In this document: positions 3,021-36,527 of the stretch, piece after piece | Numbering within the stretch: position 1 is the stretch's first letter | Layout: each line of letters begins with the position of its first letter | Origin: Candidatus Parcubacteria bacterium | GTDB taxonomy: Bacteria > Patescibacteriota > Patescibacteriia > Patescibacteriales > UBA12075 | Direction: 5' to 3' | DNA length: 40,193 nt | Assembly: GCA_023132155.1 (NCBI GenBank) | Contig: JAGLYP010000003.1 | Location: forward strand, 1-40,193 | Position numbers and translations under genes: made by a program | Notes under the pieces: model-generated | Told to the model about the DNA's origin: nothing | The model's database searches: none | The model's input: the letters and a program-made list of their open reading frames with translations, nothing else

Positions 3021-3041
3021 GGCAATGTATTGTGTTATAAT
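3012..3041 (+). promoter_or_regulatory. extended -10 promoter of the Clp-like operon
   Basis: The -35-like TTGTGT (3012-3017), an 18-nt spacer and an extended -10 TGTTATAAT (3033-3041) face rightward. The -35 overlaps the -35 of the minus-strand rpmA promoter, so the two promoters are back to back and could compete. A start near 3048 would place the structured element at 3099-3142 in the 5' leader. Confidence 0.65.
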
Positions 3042-3098: not shown

Positions 3099-3142
3099 AT
3101 TCGCATATCCTGCAAACGTACGCGCGGGTTTGCGAAACGAAT
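3099..3142 (+). promoter_or_regulatory. structured 5' leader element, copy 1
   Basis: An outer stem ATTCG/CGAAT (3099-3103 with 3138-3142) encloses an internal loop (ATAT opposite TTTGCGAA) and an inner stem CCTGC/GCGGG. A second copy at 35385-35447 keeps the outer stem, the ATRT/TTTGCGAA internal loop and the inner stem, while the apical loop differs in size and sequence. In both copies the start codon follows within 5-6 nt, linked by an AAC(C)TT tail, and an extended -10 promoter lies upstream. This suggests an RNA element acting on translation initiation. I do not recognise it as a known riboswitch. Confidence 0.5.
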
Positions 3143-3148
3143 AACCTT

Positions 3149-3514
3149 ATGATGACAAATAATTTTACTTTATATGGAATAAAGATTTTAGCTGAAATTG
3201 CGCGCGATATTTTGTTTTTTCCGTTTTGGTGGTATTCGCGCGGGTTATTTAATGTTGTTCAGAAACAGATATTTTTTCTTAAAAATATGCAGAAATCTTT
3301 AGCCCTTTTGGTTTGGATAAAAAATATTTTCAAGCCTATGTACGGCCAGCGTGATTGGCAGGGTATTTTAATCAGTATTTTTATTCGTTCCGTTCAAATA
3401 GTATTTCGCAGTTTTTTAATGTTGTTTTTAATAATTTTTTCTTTATTTTTAATAATTTTTTGGATAATTTTACCGCCTTTAGTGATTTTTGAAATATTTT
3501 TTCAATTACTTTAA
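3149..3514 (+). CDS. small hydrophobic membrane protein upstream of Clp-like ATPase
   Basis: I do not recognise a named family. The 121-residue protein has an aromatic, amphipathic N-terminal half (an FFPFWWYSRG block at about residues 23-32) and a very hydrophobic C-terminal stretch from about residue 85 to the end, enough for one long or two short membrane helices. Two consecutive ATGs (3149 and 3152) are possible starts. The gene ends 2 nt before the Clp-like ATPase start, so the two are almost surely cotranscribed. As the downstream ATPase is itself membrane anchored, a role as its membrane partner or adaptor is a reasonable inference. The gene sits directly behind the structured leader element. 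Confidence 0.75.
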   Translation: MMTNNFTLYGIKILAEIARDILFFPFWWYSRGLFNVVQKQIFFLKNMQKSLALLVWIKNIFKPMYGQRDWQGILISIFIRSVQIVFRSFLMLFLIIFSLFLIIFWIILPPLVIFEIFFQLL

Positions 3515-3516
3515 AT

Positions 3517-6264
3517 ATGAATGACTCAATCAACAGCAATTTTATAGTTTGTCCGAATTGTCAGGGAAAAGGTAAAAATAATTTAGGCGTGGCCTGTCCC
3601 AATTGCGCCGGTTGCGGTCTGGGAACATTTTTTCATGGCCGTTTTTTTTATTGGGGTCCGAAATTAGGACGAGCCATGATTGAGTTGAGTCATTTTCGCA
3701 AGAAAATTCATTTATTAATAAATATTTTGGCTTTCACTTTGGGTTTTATCGGTTTGTTATCACTTGGTTTTTGGGCTTATTTAGCAAGCGGATACACAAG
3801 CGAGATTGGCGCTTTTGCCTTTTGGCGTGAAAAGCATATATTAATATTGCTGTTTTGGTTAAGCATGGCGGCTGATATGTTTGTAATGTATCGTTTAAGC
3901 GAGGAGGAACGGCAGAGGCATAAAATTAAAAAATTAAATTACGAGGAAAGCATCCAAAAGCAAGAATTGCCCGATAATTGGGATGAATTAAGGCGAGCGG
4001 CCGGCAGTTATAAAATCGATGTTTCCGGCGGGTTTAATCTGGGCGCTTATGATATGGCGGAAGATGCTTATTTGCTTGCCGCCAAGCTTGAGCATGAATA
4101 TGTTACGCCCCTGCATTTATTTTTTTCTTGTTTGGCCGATAAAGAAGTAGCCGCGATTTTTTCCCGCCTGAATGTTGATGGAGAAAAATTTTTAAAGAAA
4201 ATAAAAGGGCAAATAGCTCAAATTGATAAAAGTGAAAACAAAACGCAGTTATCAAAAACCGTAAGAGAAGTTTTTATTGAAGCATATATTAATGCTTACA
4301 AGTTAAGGCAAAAAAAGGTTTCGGCAAAAAATTTTATTATTCCTTGCTTAAAAAGAAATAATATTATTAAAGAAATATTGCTGGATTTTGATGTTAATAA
4401 AGACAAGATTTTTAACGTGATTTTGTGGTTTATTATTAACGAACAGCAGGTTGCGAATTATCAAAAATATAAAAGTTTGGCGCGCTTTAAGCCCAGTTCA
4501 AATATGGACCGCGCTTATACATCTGTTGCTACGCCAATGTTAAAACAAATTGCTTATGACTTGACTTTGGCGGCTAAGTTTGGCAGGCTTGAATATTGTG
4601 TCGCGCGCGAAAAAGAAATTGAAGCGATTTGGCAGTATTTTGAAAGCGGTGCTACCGGCGCCATGCTGGTTGGCCCTGTTGGGACGGGAAAAAATGCTAT
4701 TATCGGCGGCATCGCCCAATTAATGGTTGAAGAAGATGTGCCTAAATTTTTGCAAGATAAAAGATTGGTTGAGCTTGACGCCTCGCGCTTGATCAGCGGA
4801 GCCAGTCCCGCCCAAGCGCAGGGCCGTTTGATGGCTGTTATTGACGAAATTGTCAGGGCGGGTAATATAGTTTTATATGTAAATAATATTGAAAATTTAA
4901 TGGGAATTTCCAGCGGTTCTGAAGAAAGTTTGGATTTATCCGAGATTCTAGCCGGCGCTATTGAGCGGAGAAGTTTTTATTGTTTTGCCTCGGCTACTGA
5001 TGTTAATTATGTTAAATATATTGAAAATAGCTCTTTAGGCAATATTTTGCCGAAAGTAGACGTAAAAGAGCCGGAGGGCAATCAAGCGATACAAATTATA
5101 GAAAGTAAAATTGGCGCCATGGAAGGAAAGTATAAGGTTTATTTCTCATATAACGCTATTGAGCAGTCAGTTGTTTTGTCGTCAAAGTATCTGCATGATA
5201 AATATTTGCCTGAGAAAGCCATAGAAATATTGGAAGGCGCGGCCGTAAAGGTTCTTAAAACAAAAGGAGAGCATTCAATGGTAGGCAAGGAAGATATAGC
5301 CGCGTCCATCAGCCTTATTACCAATATTCCAATAACAAAAATTACCGAGGATGAAGGCAGGAAGCTGTTGCAATTAGAAGAGGAGATGCATAAAAGAATG
5401 ATTGCGCAAGACGAAGCGGTTAATTCTGTCGCCTCCAGCCTTCGGCGCGCCAGAACCCAGTTAAGAGAAGCTGATCGGCCGATTGCCAATTTTTTATTTT
5501 TGGGTCCGACCGGAGTCGGTAAAACAGAGTTGGCTAAAACTGTTTCTGAGGTTTATTTTGGCAAAGAGGAATATATGATCAGGGTTGATATGAGCGAATA
5601 TCAGCATCCTGACAGCATTAAGAAAATGATCGGAGACGCAAGCGGCGCGCGCGGGTATTTAACGGAAAAAGTGAGAAAATCGCCGTTTTCTTTAATTCTT
5701 CTAGACGAAATTGAAAAAGCGCATAAAGATATTTTAAATGTTTTTCTCCAAGTTATGGATGATGGCCGTTTAACTGACGGGCAAGGCAGGACAATTGATT
5801 TTACCAACGTGATAATTATCGCTACTTCCAATGCCGGAGCAATTTATATTCAGAATGAGATTTATAAAGGCACGCCTATTTCTGAAATAAAAAATGTTCT
5901 AATAAATGAGCATTTAAAAAATGTGATGCGTCCGGAGTTAATAAACCGTTTTGACGGGGTAATAGTTTTTGAGCCTTTGAGTTTTGAGAATGTGGTTGAT
6001 ATTGCTAAAATTTTATTAGAAAAGCTTAAAAAAGCGCTTGATTCAAAAGGTATTAGCTTAAGATGCGAAGAACAGGGCGTAAGAATTTTAGCGAAACAAG
6101 GATTTGATCCCAAATTCGGCGCGCGGCCTTTAAAAAGATTATTGCGAGACAAAATTGAAGACGAGATAGCCAATTTAATTTTAGCCGGAGCATTAAAGCG
6201 AAGAGATACAGTTATTATTGATGAAATGGCGAATGTGAAAGTTGAGAAGGGGGTTAAGATATGA
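3517..6264 (+). CDS. membrane-anchored Clp/Hsp100 AAA+ ATPase, first ATPase site degenerate
   Basis: A two-ring Clp-type unfoldase or disaggregase. In order: a DnaJ-like zinc finger (CPNCQGKG 12-19, CPNCAGCG 27-34), two membrane segments (about 67-91 and 107-126), a Clp N-domain from about 180, AAA1, and AAA2. AAA2 is intact: Walker A GPTGVGKT (663-670), Walker B Asp730-Glu731, a sensor 1 region with ATSNAGA, and the C-terminal GARPLKR sensor 2. AAA1 looks catalytically dead: Walker A is GPVGTGKN (386-393, Asn for Thr/Ser), and the Walker B acids are both Asn (456-457). No coiled-coil M-domain is evident between the rings, and the (V/I)GF ClpP-docking loop is not visible in AAA2. It therefore may work without ClpP, or with another membrane protease. 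Calling it ClpC, as is common for CPR homologues, would overstate what is seen. Confidence 0.85.
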   Translation: MNDSINSNFIVCPNCQGKGKNNLGVACPNCAGCGLGTFFHGRFFYWGPKLGRAMIELSHFRKKIHLLINILAFTLGFIGLLSLGFWAYLASGYTSEIGAFAFWREKHILILLFWLSMAADMFVMYRLSEEERQRHKIKKLNYEESIQKQELPDNWDELRRAAGSYKIDVSGGFNLGAYDMAEDAYLLAAKLEHEYVTPLHLFFSCLADKEVAAIFSRLNVDGEKFLKKIKGQIAQIDKSENKTQLSKTVREVFIEAYINAYKLRQKKVSAKNFIIPCLKRNNIIKEILLDFDVNKDKIFNVILWFIINEQQVANYQKYKSLARFKPSSNMDRAYTSVATPMLKQIAYDLTLAAKFGRLEYCVAREKEIEAIWQYFESGATGAMLVGPVGTGKNAIIGGIAQLMVEEDVPKFLQDKRLVELDASRLISGASPAQAQGRLMAVIDEIVRAGNIVLYVNNIENLMGISSGSEESLDLSEILAGAIERRSFYCFASATDVNYVKYIENSSLGNILPKVDVKEPEGNQAIQIIESKIGAMEGKYKVYFSYNAIEQSVVLSSKYLHDKYLPEKAIEILEGAAVKVLKTKGEHSMVGKEDIAASISLITNIPITKITEDEGRKLLQLEEEMHKRMIAQDEAVNSVASSLRRARTQLREADRPIANFLFLGPTGVGKTELAKTVSEVYFGKEEYMIRVDMSEYQHPDSIKKMIGDASGARGYLTEKVRKSPFSLILLDEIEKAHKDILNVFLQVMDDGRLTDGQGRTIDFTNVIIIATSNAGAIYIQNEIYKGTPISEIKNVLINEHLKNVMRPELINRFDGVIVFEPLSFENVVDIAKILLEKLKKALDSKGISLRCEEQGVRILAKQGFDPKFGARPLKRLLRDKIEDEIANLILAGALKRRDTVIIDEMANVKVEKGVKI

Positions 6265-34077: not shown

Positions 34078-35235
34078 ATGATTAAAATAAAAAAAAAATC
34101 AGATAAAACCAAATTAAGAATCGGCGAAATAAAAACAAAACGCGGAGTTATTCAAACCCCGTTTTTTATGCCTGACGCGACGCGCGCGGTTTTAAAAGGT
34201 ATTGGCAATAATGAATCTGGTAAGCTCAATTTAAGCGCGATGGTAGTTAATACTTATCATCTTTATTTGCAGCCCGGAATGGATTTAATTAAAAAAGCGG
34301 GCGGAGTTAATAAATTTATGAATTTTGACAAGCCCTTGCTTTCAGACAGCGGCGGTTTTCAGGTTTTTTCTTTGATTCATCGGTCAAAGAAAATGGGAAA
34401 AATTTATGATAAGCATGTTGAATTTAAGTCGCCCATAGACGGTTCTTGGCACGGATTAACACCGGAGAAATCCATACAAATTCAGTTTGACCTAGGGGTA
34501 GATATGATGGTGTGTTTGGATGACTGCCCGCCAAATGAATTTTCCCGCGAGAATTTAGAGTCGTCCGTAAATAGAACCGTTCAATGGGCGGGGCGCTGTA
34601 AAAAGGAATATTTAACGCAGATTAAAAAAAGAAAAATAAAAGAAGATGAAAGGCCTTTGCTTTTTGGCGTTATACAGGGCGGAGTTGAGCTTGATTTGCG
34701 CGAAAAATGCGCCAAAGAACTAATTAAGCTTGATTTTGACGGTTATGGATTCGGCGCCAGGCCGGTTGATAAAGAAGGAAATTTTTTGGAAGAAGTTCTG
34801 CAATTTACCGCTGAGTTAATCCCTAAAGACAAGCTTCGCTTCGCGCTTGGCGTCGGCACGCCTGAAGACATAGTTAGGTGCGCTAACATGGGCTGGGATA
34901 TGTTTGATTGTGTTATTCCGACTCGGGAGGGGAGGCATGGACGCCTCTTTGAGGCAATTTCCAATTTCCAATTTCCAATTTCCAAACAAACTTCAATTTC
35001 CAATGATCAAATTTCAAAATCTATTTATAAAACTATAAATATTAATAACGCGGGATTTGCCATGGATTTTAGCGCGATAAATTTAAATAGTGAATTGGTG
35101 GAATTGAGAGATTATTCGCGGGCTTATTTGCATCATTTGTTTAAAATTAAAGATTCGCTTGGCGCGCGGCTTGCCAGTTTGAATAATTTGGAGTTTTATA
35201 TTAAGTTGATGGAAAATATCCGTTTGGGCGATTAA
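34078..35235 (+). CDS. tgt: tRNA-guanine transglycosylase, zinc site absent
   Basis: Exchanges guanine 34 of tRNAs with GUN anticodons for preQ1 or a related base. Catalytic residues are present: Asp90 in DSGGFQVF, DDCP near 149, GVIQGG (197-202), and the nucleophile Asp277 in FDCVIPTREGRHG. Two departures are striking. The base-recognition loop, GGLAVGE in well studied bacterial enzymes, reads FGARPVDKE (225-233). The four zinc ligands of the E. coli enzyme (CxCxxC and a later His) align with Ser338, Leu340, Leu343 and Asn369, so the zinc site is gone although the flanking YSRAYLHHL and GARL blocks remain. A heptamer repeat encodes SNFQFPISK at 295-303. The queH gene shows the pathway exists here, but the incorporated base may differ. 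Confidence 0.88.
   Translation: MIKIKKKSDKTKLRIGEIKTKRGVIQTPFFMPDATRAVLKGIGNNESGKLNLSAMVVNTYHLYLQPGMDLIKKAGGVNKFMNFDKPLLSDSGGFQVFSLIHRSKKMGKIYDKHVEFKSPIDGSWHGLTPEKSIQIQFDLGVDMMVCLDDCPPNEFSRENLESSVNRTVQWAGRCKKEYLTQIKKRKIKEDERPLLFGVIQGGVELDLREKCAKELIKLDFDGYGFGARPVDKEGNFLEEVLQFTAELIPKDKLRFALGVGTPEDIVRCANMGWDMFDCVIPTREGRHGRLFEAISNFQFPISKQTSISNDQISKSIYKTININNAGFAMDFSAINLNSELVELRDYSRAYLHHLFKIKDSLGARLASLNNLEFYIKLMENIRLGD
34955..34982. repeat. in-frame 7-nt tandem repeat inside tgt
   Basis: Four exact CAATTTC units, then related degenerate sequence to about 35017 (TTCAATTTCCAATGATCAAATTTC). It lies just after the segment encoding the nucleophile block and before the degenerate zinc region. Confidence 0.85.
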
Positions 35236-35313
35236 AACAGGAACTAAGTACCTACGATTTTTTGTTTCCGGTTTACCGGAAACAAAAAATCGTAGGTACT
35301 TAGTTCCTGTTTT
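35234..35313. repeat. 80-bp palindrome after tgt
   Basis: Two 39-bp perfectly complementary arms (35234-35272 and 35275-35313) separated by TT. The first bases are the last two of the tgt stop codon, and the last arm ends in TTTT. It probably acts as a terminator, but the stem is far longer than termination needs. It shares the AAAAAA(C/T)CGTAGG-like segment with the 66-bp palindrome at 20154. Confidence 0.85.
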
Positions 35314-35351
35314 ATAAATTGCGCTTGAAATTTTTTATTTTATTTAAAATA

Positions 35352-35360
35352 TGTTATAAT
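35352..35360 (+). promoter_or_regulatory. extended -10 promoter of gap
   Basis: TGTTATAAT (35352-35360), with TTGAAA 24 nt upstream of the hexamer, too far for a normal -35. The start near 35367 would leave the structured element at 35385-35447 in the 5' leader. Confidence 0.6.
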
Positions 35361-35384
35361 ATAAAAAGAAATTTTAATATTAAC

Positions 35385-35447
35385 ATTCGCATGTCCCGCA
35401 CGTGTGCCGTTCTACGGTATTCGTAGTTGCGGGTTTGCGAAGCGAAT
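35385..35447 (+). promoter_or_regulatory. structured 5' leader element, copy 2
   Basis: The outer stem ATTCGC/GCGAAT (35385-35390 with 35442-35447), the internal loop ATGT opposite TTTGCGAA and the inner stem CCCGCA/TGCGGG (35395-35400 with 35428-35433) are all perfect. The apical region holds an extra hairpin CCGT-TCT-ACGG (35407-35417) missing in copy 1. The gap start codon is 5 nt downstream of the outer stem. Confidence 0.55.
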
Positions 35448-35452
35448 AACTT

Positions 35453-36463
35453 ATGAATATCGCAATTAACGGTTTTGGCCGGATTGGCCGGGCAGTATTT
35501 AAAATAATGCTTGAAAATAAGAAGGATTTTAATGTTGTCGCAATTAACGATTTAACCGACACAAAAACTTTGGCACATTTATTAAAGTATGACACTTGCT
35601 ATGGCAAGTATGAGAAAAATGTTGAGTGTGGTGCTGATAGCATCAGCGTTTCAGGAAAAAAATATAAAATATTGGCGGAAAAAAATCCGGCTCAATTACC
35701 GTGGAAGAAAATGGAGGTTGATATTGTTTTGGAGTGTACCGGCAGATTCAGAACTAAACAGGACGCGGGTATGCATATTAAAGCCGGCGCTAAAAAAGTA
35801 ATAATTAGCGCGCCGGGCAAAGGCGACGGCATTAAAACGATAGTCCTTGGCGTAAATGAGAAAAAAATCAATAAGAATGATAAAATTATTTCCAATGCTT
35901 CTTGTACCACAAATTGTTTGTCTCCTGTTACGCAAATAATTAAAGATAATTTTGGCATTAAAAAAGCCGTGATGTCCACAATTCATTCCTATACAGCCGA
36001 TCAAAATTTAGTTGACGGACCGCATACTGATTTACGGCGAGCAAGAGCCGCCGCGCAAAATATTATTCCGACTACTACCGGAGCGGCCATTGCCACGACG
36101 CAAACCATACCGTCTTTAAAAAATAAATTTGACGGCATGGCAATCCGCGTGCCAACTCCGATCGGCTCTTTGGTGGATGTCTGTTTTGTGACAAAAAAGA
36201 AAACAGATGAAAAACAAGTGAATCAGGCCTTTAAAAAAGCGGCTCGCGGCGCCGTTTATAAAAAATATATTGAAGCGTCGGAAGAACCCTTGGTACTCGC
36301 GGATATAGTGGGCAATGGCGCAAGCGCGATTGTTGATTTAAATTGCACTAAAGTGGTTGACGGCGATTTAGTAAAAGTGATTGCATGGTATGATAATGAG
36401 TGGGGCTACGCGAATAGAGTTGTTGATTTATGCGGGTATATTAAGAGGAAAAAGTATATATAA
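35453..36463 (+). CDS. gap: glyceraldehyde-3-phosphate dehydrogenase (NAD type)
   Basis: Oxidises glyceraldehyde 3-phosphate to 1,3-bisphosphoglycerate in glycolysis, producing NADH. The Rossmann motif INGFGRIGR is at 5-13, Asp in AINDLTD marks NAD preference, the catalytic Cys151 lies in SNASCTTNC, and the C-terminal WYDNEWGYANR is intact. The length of 336 is standard. It is expressed from its own promoter behind the structured leader element. The hydrogenase-associated genes follow 64 nt downstream, so NADH formed here could feed H2 production; that link is inferred from neighbourhood. Confidence 0.96.
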   Translation: MNIAINGFGRIGRAVFKIMLENKKDFNVVAINDLTDTKTLAHLLKYDTCYGKYEKNVECGADSISVSGKKYKILAEKNPAQLPWKKMEVDIVLECTGRFRTKQDAGMHIKAGAKKVIISAPGKGDGIKTIVLGVNEKKINKNDKIISNASCTTNCLSPVTQIIKDNFGIKKAVMSTIHSYTADQNLVDGPHTDLRRARAAAQNIIPTTTGAAIATTQTIPSLKNKFDGMAIRVPTPIGSLVDVCFVTKKKTDEKQVNQAFKKAARGAVYKKYIEASEEPLVLADIVGNGASAIVDLNCTKVVDGDLVKVIAWYDNEWGYANRVVDLCGYIKRKKYI

Positions 36464-36465
36464 TA

Positions 36466-36496
36466 TGTCATTGCGAGCGCCAGCGAAGCAATGACA
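36466..36496. repeat. 31-nt inverted-repeat element
   Basis: TGTCATTGC (36466-36474) and GCAATGACA (36488-36496) flank GAGCGCCAGCGAA. This type of sequence (TGTCATTGCGAGCG...) recurs in many bacterial genomes. It shares TGTCAT/ATGACA ends with the two larger foldback elements. Confidence 0.7.
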
Positions 36497-36527
36497 AAAA
36501 AAGAAGTGTTTGTGTATTTGTAATTTT

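Follow-up and report, generated by a model that had tools for sequence, protein, structure and literature searches.

Double-hairpin repeats ahead of start codons in a Parcubacteria genome: a probable lineage-specific mobile element kept as a sense-strand 5′ leader

Double-hairpin elements (DHEs) have been described from fungal mitochondrial DNA, in Allomyces and in Schizosaccharomyces octosporus and S. osmophilus, and in the available accounts they comprise two adjacent GC-rich hairpins dispersed through an AT-rich genome, are thought to be mobile and are patchily distributed between close species (PMC2800124, PMC10085805); for the Allomyces elements these accounts report no typical flanking duplications (PMC2800124, PMC10085805). 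Yeast mitochondrial GC clusters are likewise GC-rich palindromes in an AT-rich genome, showing copy-number turnover and element merger (PMC4478555). Among bacterial repeats, REP or GTAG palindromes with TnpA-REP are short and dispersed, with grouped copies, and form lineage-specific families with stem variation and conserved single-stranded motifs (PMC3733652, PMC8266576), while ERIC is described as a small mobile repeat which enters transcripts and can alter mRNA stability according to its orientation (PMC2229807).

Here we describe a repeat which is probably a lineage-specific, mobile, non-coding double hairpin, and which in the genome studied (G000, 1.23 Mb) appears to be retained almost exclusively as a 5′ leader on the sense strand, before start codons. 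Two copies lie in the window, by which we mean the whole 40,193-nt stretch of Candidatus Parcubacteria DNA that was analysed. A preliminary description had noted a pair of similar structured sequences ahead of two unrelated genes, and both were confirmed, at 3099–3146 and 35385–35451. They belong to a family of at least 32 copies in G000, detected with a covariance model (R1, E ≤ 0.1) built from an alignment of 23 copies; a second covariance model (R2) was used for the order-wide search. A scan with a 13-nt core pattern found over 20 near-perfect occurrences of GCGGGTTTGCGAA, with a C/T variant, in the genome, and this recurrence, together with the 32 covariance-model matches, indicates that the resemblance of the window copies is not due to chance. 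The element is about 48 nt long and consists, in order, of ATTCGCATGT, a first hairpin (P1, loop ATTCGTAG), a second hairpin (P2, loop usually GAA) and ATAAC. The two copies and their flanks are laid out as follows.

3033..3041, forward strand: extended -10 promoter-like TGTTATAAT upstream of copy 1, recognised by sequence; putative function
3099..3146, forward strand: double-hairpin element copy 1 (5′ ATTCGCATAT, P1, P2, AATAACC), before a 121-aa membrane-protein ORF; matches R1 (E 8.9e-12) and R2
3109..3128, forward strand: P1 hairpin of copy 1, CCTGC / GCGGG
3129..3141, forward strand: P2 hairpin of copy 1, TTTG-CGAAA-CGAA, in which the closing C-G pair is lost
3149..3514, forward strand: 121-aa ORF, its ATG at 3149 after a 2-nt gap from copy 1; no Pfam match
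3517-6264: ClpB-type AAA+ gene, next after the 121-aa ORF
35352..35360, forward strand: extended -10 TGTTATAAT of gap, also found upstream of gap in element-free genomes of the same genus
35370..35382, forward strand: AATTTTAATATTA, upstream motif common to many start-codon-adjacent copies
35385..35451, forward strand: double-hairpin element copy 2, before gap; matches R1 (E 2.1e-14) and R2
35395..35433, forward strand: P1 hairpin of copy 2, CCCGC / GCGGG, with enlarged loop
35401..35419, forward strand: palindromic 19-nt insert CGTGTGCCGTTCTACGGTA in the P1 loop of copy 2
35434..35446, forward strand: P2 hairpin of copy 2, TTTGC-GAA-GCGAA
35453..36463, forward strand: gap (glyceraldehyde-3-phosphate dehydrogenase), its ATG at 35453 after a 1-nt gap from copy 2; Pfam PF00044 and PF02800

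Other palindromes are also present in the window. A perfect 40-bp inverted repeat with a 2-nt centre occupies 35233–35314, between tgt and the gap promoter, and a second dispersed palindrome family, GTCATTGCGAGC...GCGAAGCAAT, occurs at about 36480–36505 and at the G000 loci L001, L023, L029 and L030, with many G000 copies on both strands.

The element is spread within one group of very small Patescibacteria: the R2 search found it in 31 of the 111 genomes of the order, at 1 to 54 copies each. One clear copy was detected outside the order, in G509 from another order of the same class, and under stricter filters there was none in the remaining genomes of a 380-genome phylum sample. Matches to Geobacillus, Bacteroidales and Rhodobacteraceae in a 19-nt pattern scan were dropped, as these lack the 5′ half of the element, and no description of the double-hairpin element was found in the literature. 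The 19-nt insert explains why the gap copy has a longer loop; roughly one in three G000 copies has this insert in its first loop. The insert is identical among its carriers (e.g. L050–L054, L059 and L062, and L076 of G002, before tmRNA), and for that reason may perhaps spread by itself.

The two-hairpin fold is common to the copies, with conserved unpaired ends and loops. RNAalifold, run unguided on 24 ungapped copies, returned exactly P1 and P2, in which 97.9% of cells are paired, seven of ten pairs show two-sided changes, and two-sided cells number 37 compared with 9.1 in shuffles. In copies from relatives P1 takes the forms CCCGC/GCGGG, GCCCC/GGGGC, GCCGC/GCGGC and GCGGC/GCCGC, and P2 variants include TTCGC/GCGAA, TCGGC/GCCGA, TTGCC/GGCAA, TCAAC/GTTGA and TTTTTGC/GCAAAAA. 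The stems thus covary, as the preliminary description had anticipated for a leader RNA, but they are not the stems it proposed. Its outer stem (ATTCG/CGAAT) reaches only 85% pairing over the copies, one of its pairs fails in 11 of 24 sequences, and it was rejected on these pair counts, with G012 L087 (GTTCGC...GCGAAC), which alters both ends together, as a counter-example; the TTTGCGAA strand, previously read as an internal loop, instead forms part of the second hairpin, TTTGC-GAA-GCGAA or TTCGC-GAA-GCGAA. The stems contain 53 G-T pairs and 18 A-C mismatches, and this excess of G-T, obtained with search models which favour G-T, is moderate evidence that the sense strand is probably the folding strand.

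In sense orientation, the region ahead of start codons is strongly enriched in copies. Counting ORFs of at least 60 aa, a sense start codon lies within 12 nt of 81 of the 172 distinct copies and an antisense one within that distance of 13, against 5.2% and 4.8% in a shifted-position control. By the strict count, 25 of 32 G000 copies end at most 12 nt from a sense start codon and 0 from an antisense one; adding rpmJ (37 aa) and purC (19 nt away) by hand brings the number to 27. The strand usually matters little to small bacterial repeats, which tend to be dispersed between genes, so for a repeat to end beside a start codon on the coding strand in 25 of 32 cases is unusual. Taking all genomes together, roughly half of the copies have no start codon next to them; some occur at a distance from genes, and others run antisense to a gene or precede a non-coding RNA. 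Sense enrichment before start codons and covarying stems together make an RNA acting in the leader plausible. To this extent the earlier proposal of a cis-acting leader RNA stands, but with other stems than those it named and for an element which is also mobile.

The downstream genes, named by reading N-terminal sequences, include rplB, rplV, rplE, rpmJ, infA, frr, secY, yidC, recO and recR, and further nrdR, ftsK, purC, gap, galU, rfbA, type IV pilus genes and nucleotide-sugar enzymes. A copy in each of G006 and G010 stops 1 nt short of the 5′ end of the tmRNA match, and the same arrangement is seen by sequence in G002 and G016. In G016 (C29, L132) the tmRNA match downstream of the element is in two pieces, possibly owing to an insertion or an unusual tmRNA. 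The element recurs on the same gene in different families (a DEAD-box helicase in G010, G016 and G031; NrdR in G000 and G443; tmRNA) and in different genera (RfbA in G000 and G009, and others), which is suggestive, not decisive, as a rough hand estimate puts chance coincidences at about four pairs. An ATG in the 5′ part is missing from 11 of 91 gene-adjacent copies and from none of the 81 others; such loss is expected if gene-adjacent copies are transcribed before the start codon, and a mixture of species could also cause it. A leader peptide was considered and rejected: the frame of the conserved 5′-part ATG relative to the gene varies (in G000, 3 in-frame, 11 overlapping and 13 stopped), hence there is no conserved upstream ORF.

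A mobile palindrome had been the main alternative offered in the preliminary description, and mobility was borne out, as same-genus orthologues lack the element and copies are nested and tandem. G001 and G002, of the same genus, encode gap proteins 94% identical to that of the window and retain the upstream TGTTATAAT, and their gap leader is plain AT-rich sequence with no element; infA is without the element in G001. Clean junctions are not found at gap and infA, hence the exact insertion borders rest on rpmJ, where the empty site reads GAATGTAAATATTATT followed directly by TTATG and the filled site has about 50 additional nt at that junction. The element is dispersed and has been gained or lost between species of one genus, and insertions enter AT-rich leaders, at gap downstream of a promoter sequence common with element-free relatives. 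Of the two marks of a MITE, no target-site duplication was seen at the rpmJ empty site, few junctions being examinable, and in most subfamilies the element's termini (ATTCG.../...ATAAC) do not form terminal inverted repeats. L072, L163 and L217 each show a whole element nested in the P1 loop of another, L129 is a tandem array of four copies, other palindromes are inserted in the element in L095 and L031, and large unrelated inserts are tolerated in the loops of L072, L095, L106 and L128. A third palindrome (CTTGYCCCTCCGTAGCYTTRGCGAAGG...) was observed within the element copies L095, L031/L112 and L105, either within P2 or in the stretch from the 5′ end to P1. As for the enzyme, a Y1 transposase (TnpA-REP) occurs in most relatives and is absent from G010, the genome with the highest copy number, in a set of incomplete genomes, and copy number is not followed by any family of transposases or reverse transcriptases; on their distribution, Y1 transposase and reverse transcriptase both appear unlikely as the driver.

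Such behaviour raises the alternative of a purely selfish, functionless palindromic repeat, whose machinery would preferentially insert it into AT-rich, transcribed or single-stranded DNA immediately 5′ of start codons, on one strand, with the hairpins needed only for movement. We regard this as rather unlikely. It is favoured by the empty sites, the nested and tandem copies, the patchy distribution among genomes, the copies lying at a distance from genes, in antisense to rpoA or ahead of tmRNA, and the genome-specific subfamilies, such as the GCCCC stems in G010. GAA mini-hairpins are very stable in single-stranded DNA, a further point in its favour. However, to account for 25 sense and 0 antisense copies in G000 the target would have to be very strong and orientation-specific, no candidate enzyme follows the copies, and compensated pairs are found at an orthologous site. 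The latter is the copy beside rpoA, which is common to G000 and G001 with homologous flanks and differs between them by compensated pairs in both stems. The structure of this copy is maintained although it runs antisense to its operon, so the constraint on it may act at the DNA level; template-switch repair of stems could also mimic compensation without selection.

A classical cis-regulatory RNA, either a riboswitch or a protein-binding leader, serving a defined regulon and spread by ordinary duplication, would fit the sense placement in leaders, the covarying fold, the conserved loops and ends, and the presence of the element on the same gene in several families. It is nevertheless improbable, as the diverse downstream proteins form no coherent gene set, the element is present or absent among species of one genus, copies are nested and tandem, the element also lies upstream of tmRNA, and the loops accept the large unrelated inserts of L072, L095, L106 and L128. 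In addition, no Rfam 15 family reached its gathering score in the window, and near the copies the only matches were far below gathering scores. The riboswitch suggested earlier found no support, with an incoherent gene set and tmRNA among the downstream genes, and the suggested link between proteostasis and glycolysis does not appear in the gene list (ribosomal proteins, IF1, SecY, YidC, RecO, RecR, NrdR, FtsK, GAPDH and others), nor does any single pathway.

The preliminary description had also placed both copies after an extended -10 promoter. The sequence TGTTATAAT does lie upstream of both window copies (3033 and 35352), but an extended -10 occurs within 130 nt of only three gene-adjacent G000 copies, so the promoter is not part of the pattern, and a promoter-linked element was rejected on this count. 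A DNA-level promoter module, in which an upstream AATTTYAATATTA motif and the hairpins jointly supply a new transcription start, draws on the observation that the motif precedes many start-adjacent copies, in several families, and that most inspected motif matches elsewhere in the genome are not before genes. This reading seems very improbable to us: gap retains its own TGTTATAAT promoter, in common with element-free relatives, AATATTATT, the core of the AATTTYAATATTA motif, is already present in the empty rpmJ site, and many copies are without the motif.

We favour a mobile repeat kept mainly as a sense-strand leader. On this reading the element would be transcribed together with the downstream gene, and in the transcript the two GC-rich hairpins would end a few nt before the AUG, with AAC-N-AUG left single-stranded. 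Most likely, the hairpin block at the ribosome entry site would adjust translation start or protect the mRNA. Other genes in the window mostly start from AT-rich leaders with no obvious Shine-Dalgarno site, and the 16S rRNA, sought for its anti-Shine-Dalgarno sequence, was not found in this assembly. Accessibility of the start region is hardly changed by the native element (0.57 vs 0.54 for shuffled elements), and improved start accessibility was rejected, showing no clear effect beyond shuffled elements. The broad functional list of downstream genes counts against this reading, as do the copies that have no start codon beside them. A more specific version, which we put forward tentatively, is a self-spreading translational leader: insertion would replace the 3′ end of the untranslated leader with a standard two-hairpin module, so that a common post-transcriptional control would extend over dozens of unrelated housekeeping genes, and at times tmRNA, in a host with little sign of Shine-Dalgarno sites. 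The element fronts rplB, rplV, rplE, infA, rpmJ and secY, where changes in translation should be costly. If true, this would offer a route for mobile DNA to create shared leaders, and translation control would become directly testable in a little-studied, mostly uncultured group.

Compared with the known systems, the element has the two adjacent GC-rich hairpins of DHEs and is present or absent between close species (at gap, rpmJ and infA), hence it may be said to share DHE architecture, the likeness meant being one of architecture. DHEs differ in being mitochondrial and mostly intergenic or in rRNA genes, and the accounts available mention no start-codon-adjacent sense bias for them. GC clusters are flanked by AG or ACT duplications (PMC4478555), whereas nothing comparable was seen at the rpmJ empty site. 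REPs form a single hairpin with an unpaired GTAG at the stem foot, whereas the element has two hairpins and carries GTAG inside the P1 loop, and identity with GTAG REPs or REPtrons was rejected on these grounds. ERIC differs in size and fold from the double-hairpin element. Nor does the available account describe ERIC as abutting start codons (PMC2229807). By architecture and behaviour, the closest systems would appear to be mitochondrial DHEs and GC clusters and, among bacteria, REPs and ERIC, and relative to these known repeats the unusual feature is the start-codon-adjacent sense placement.
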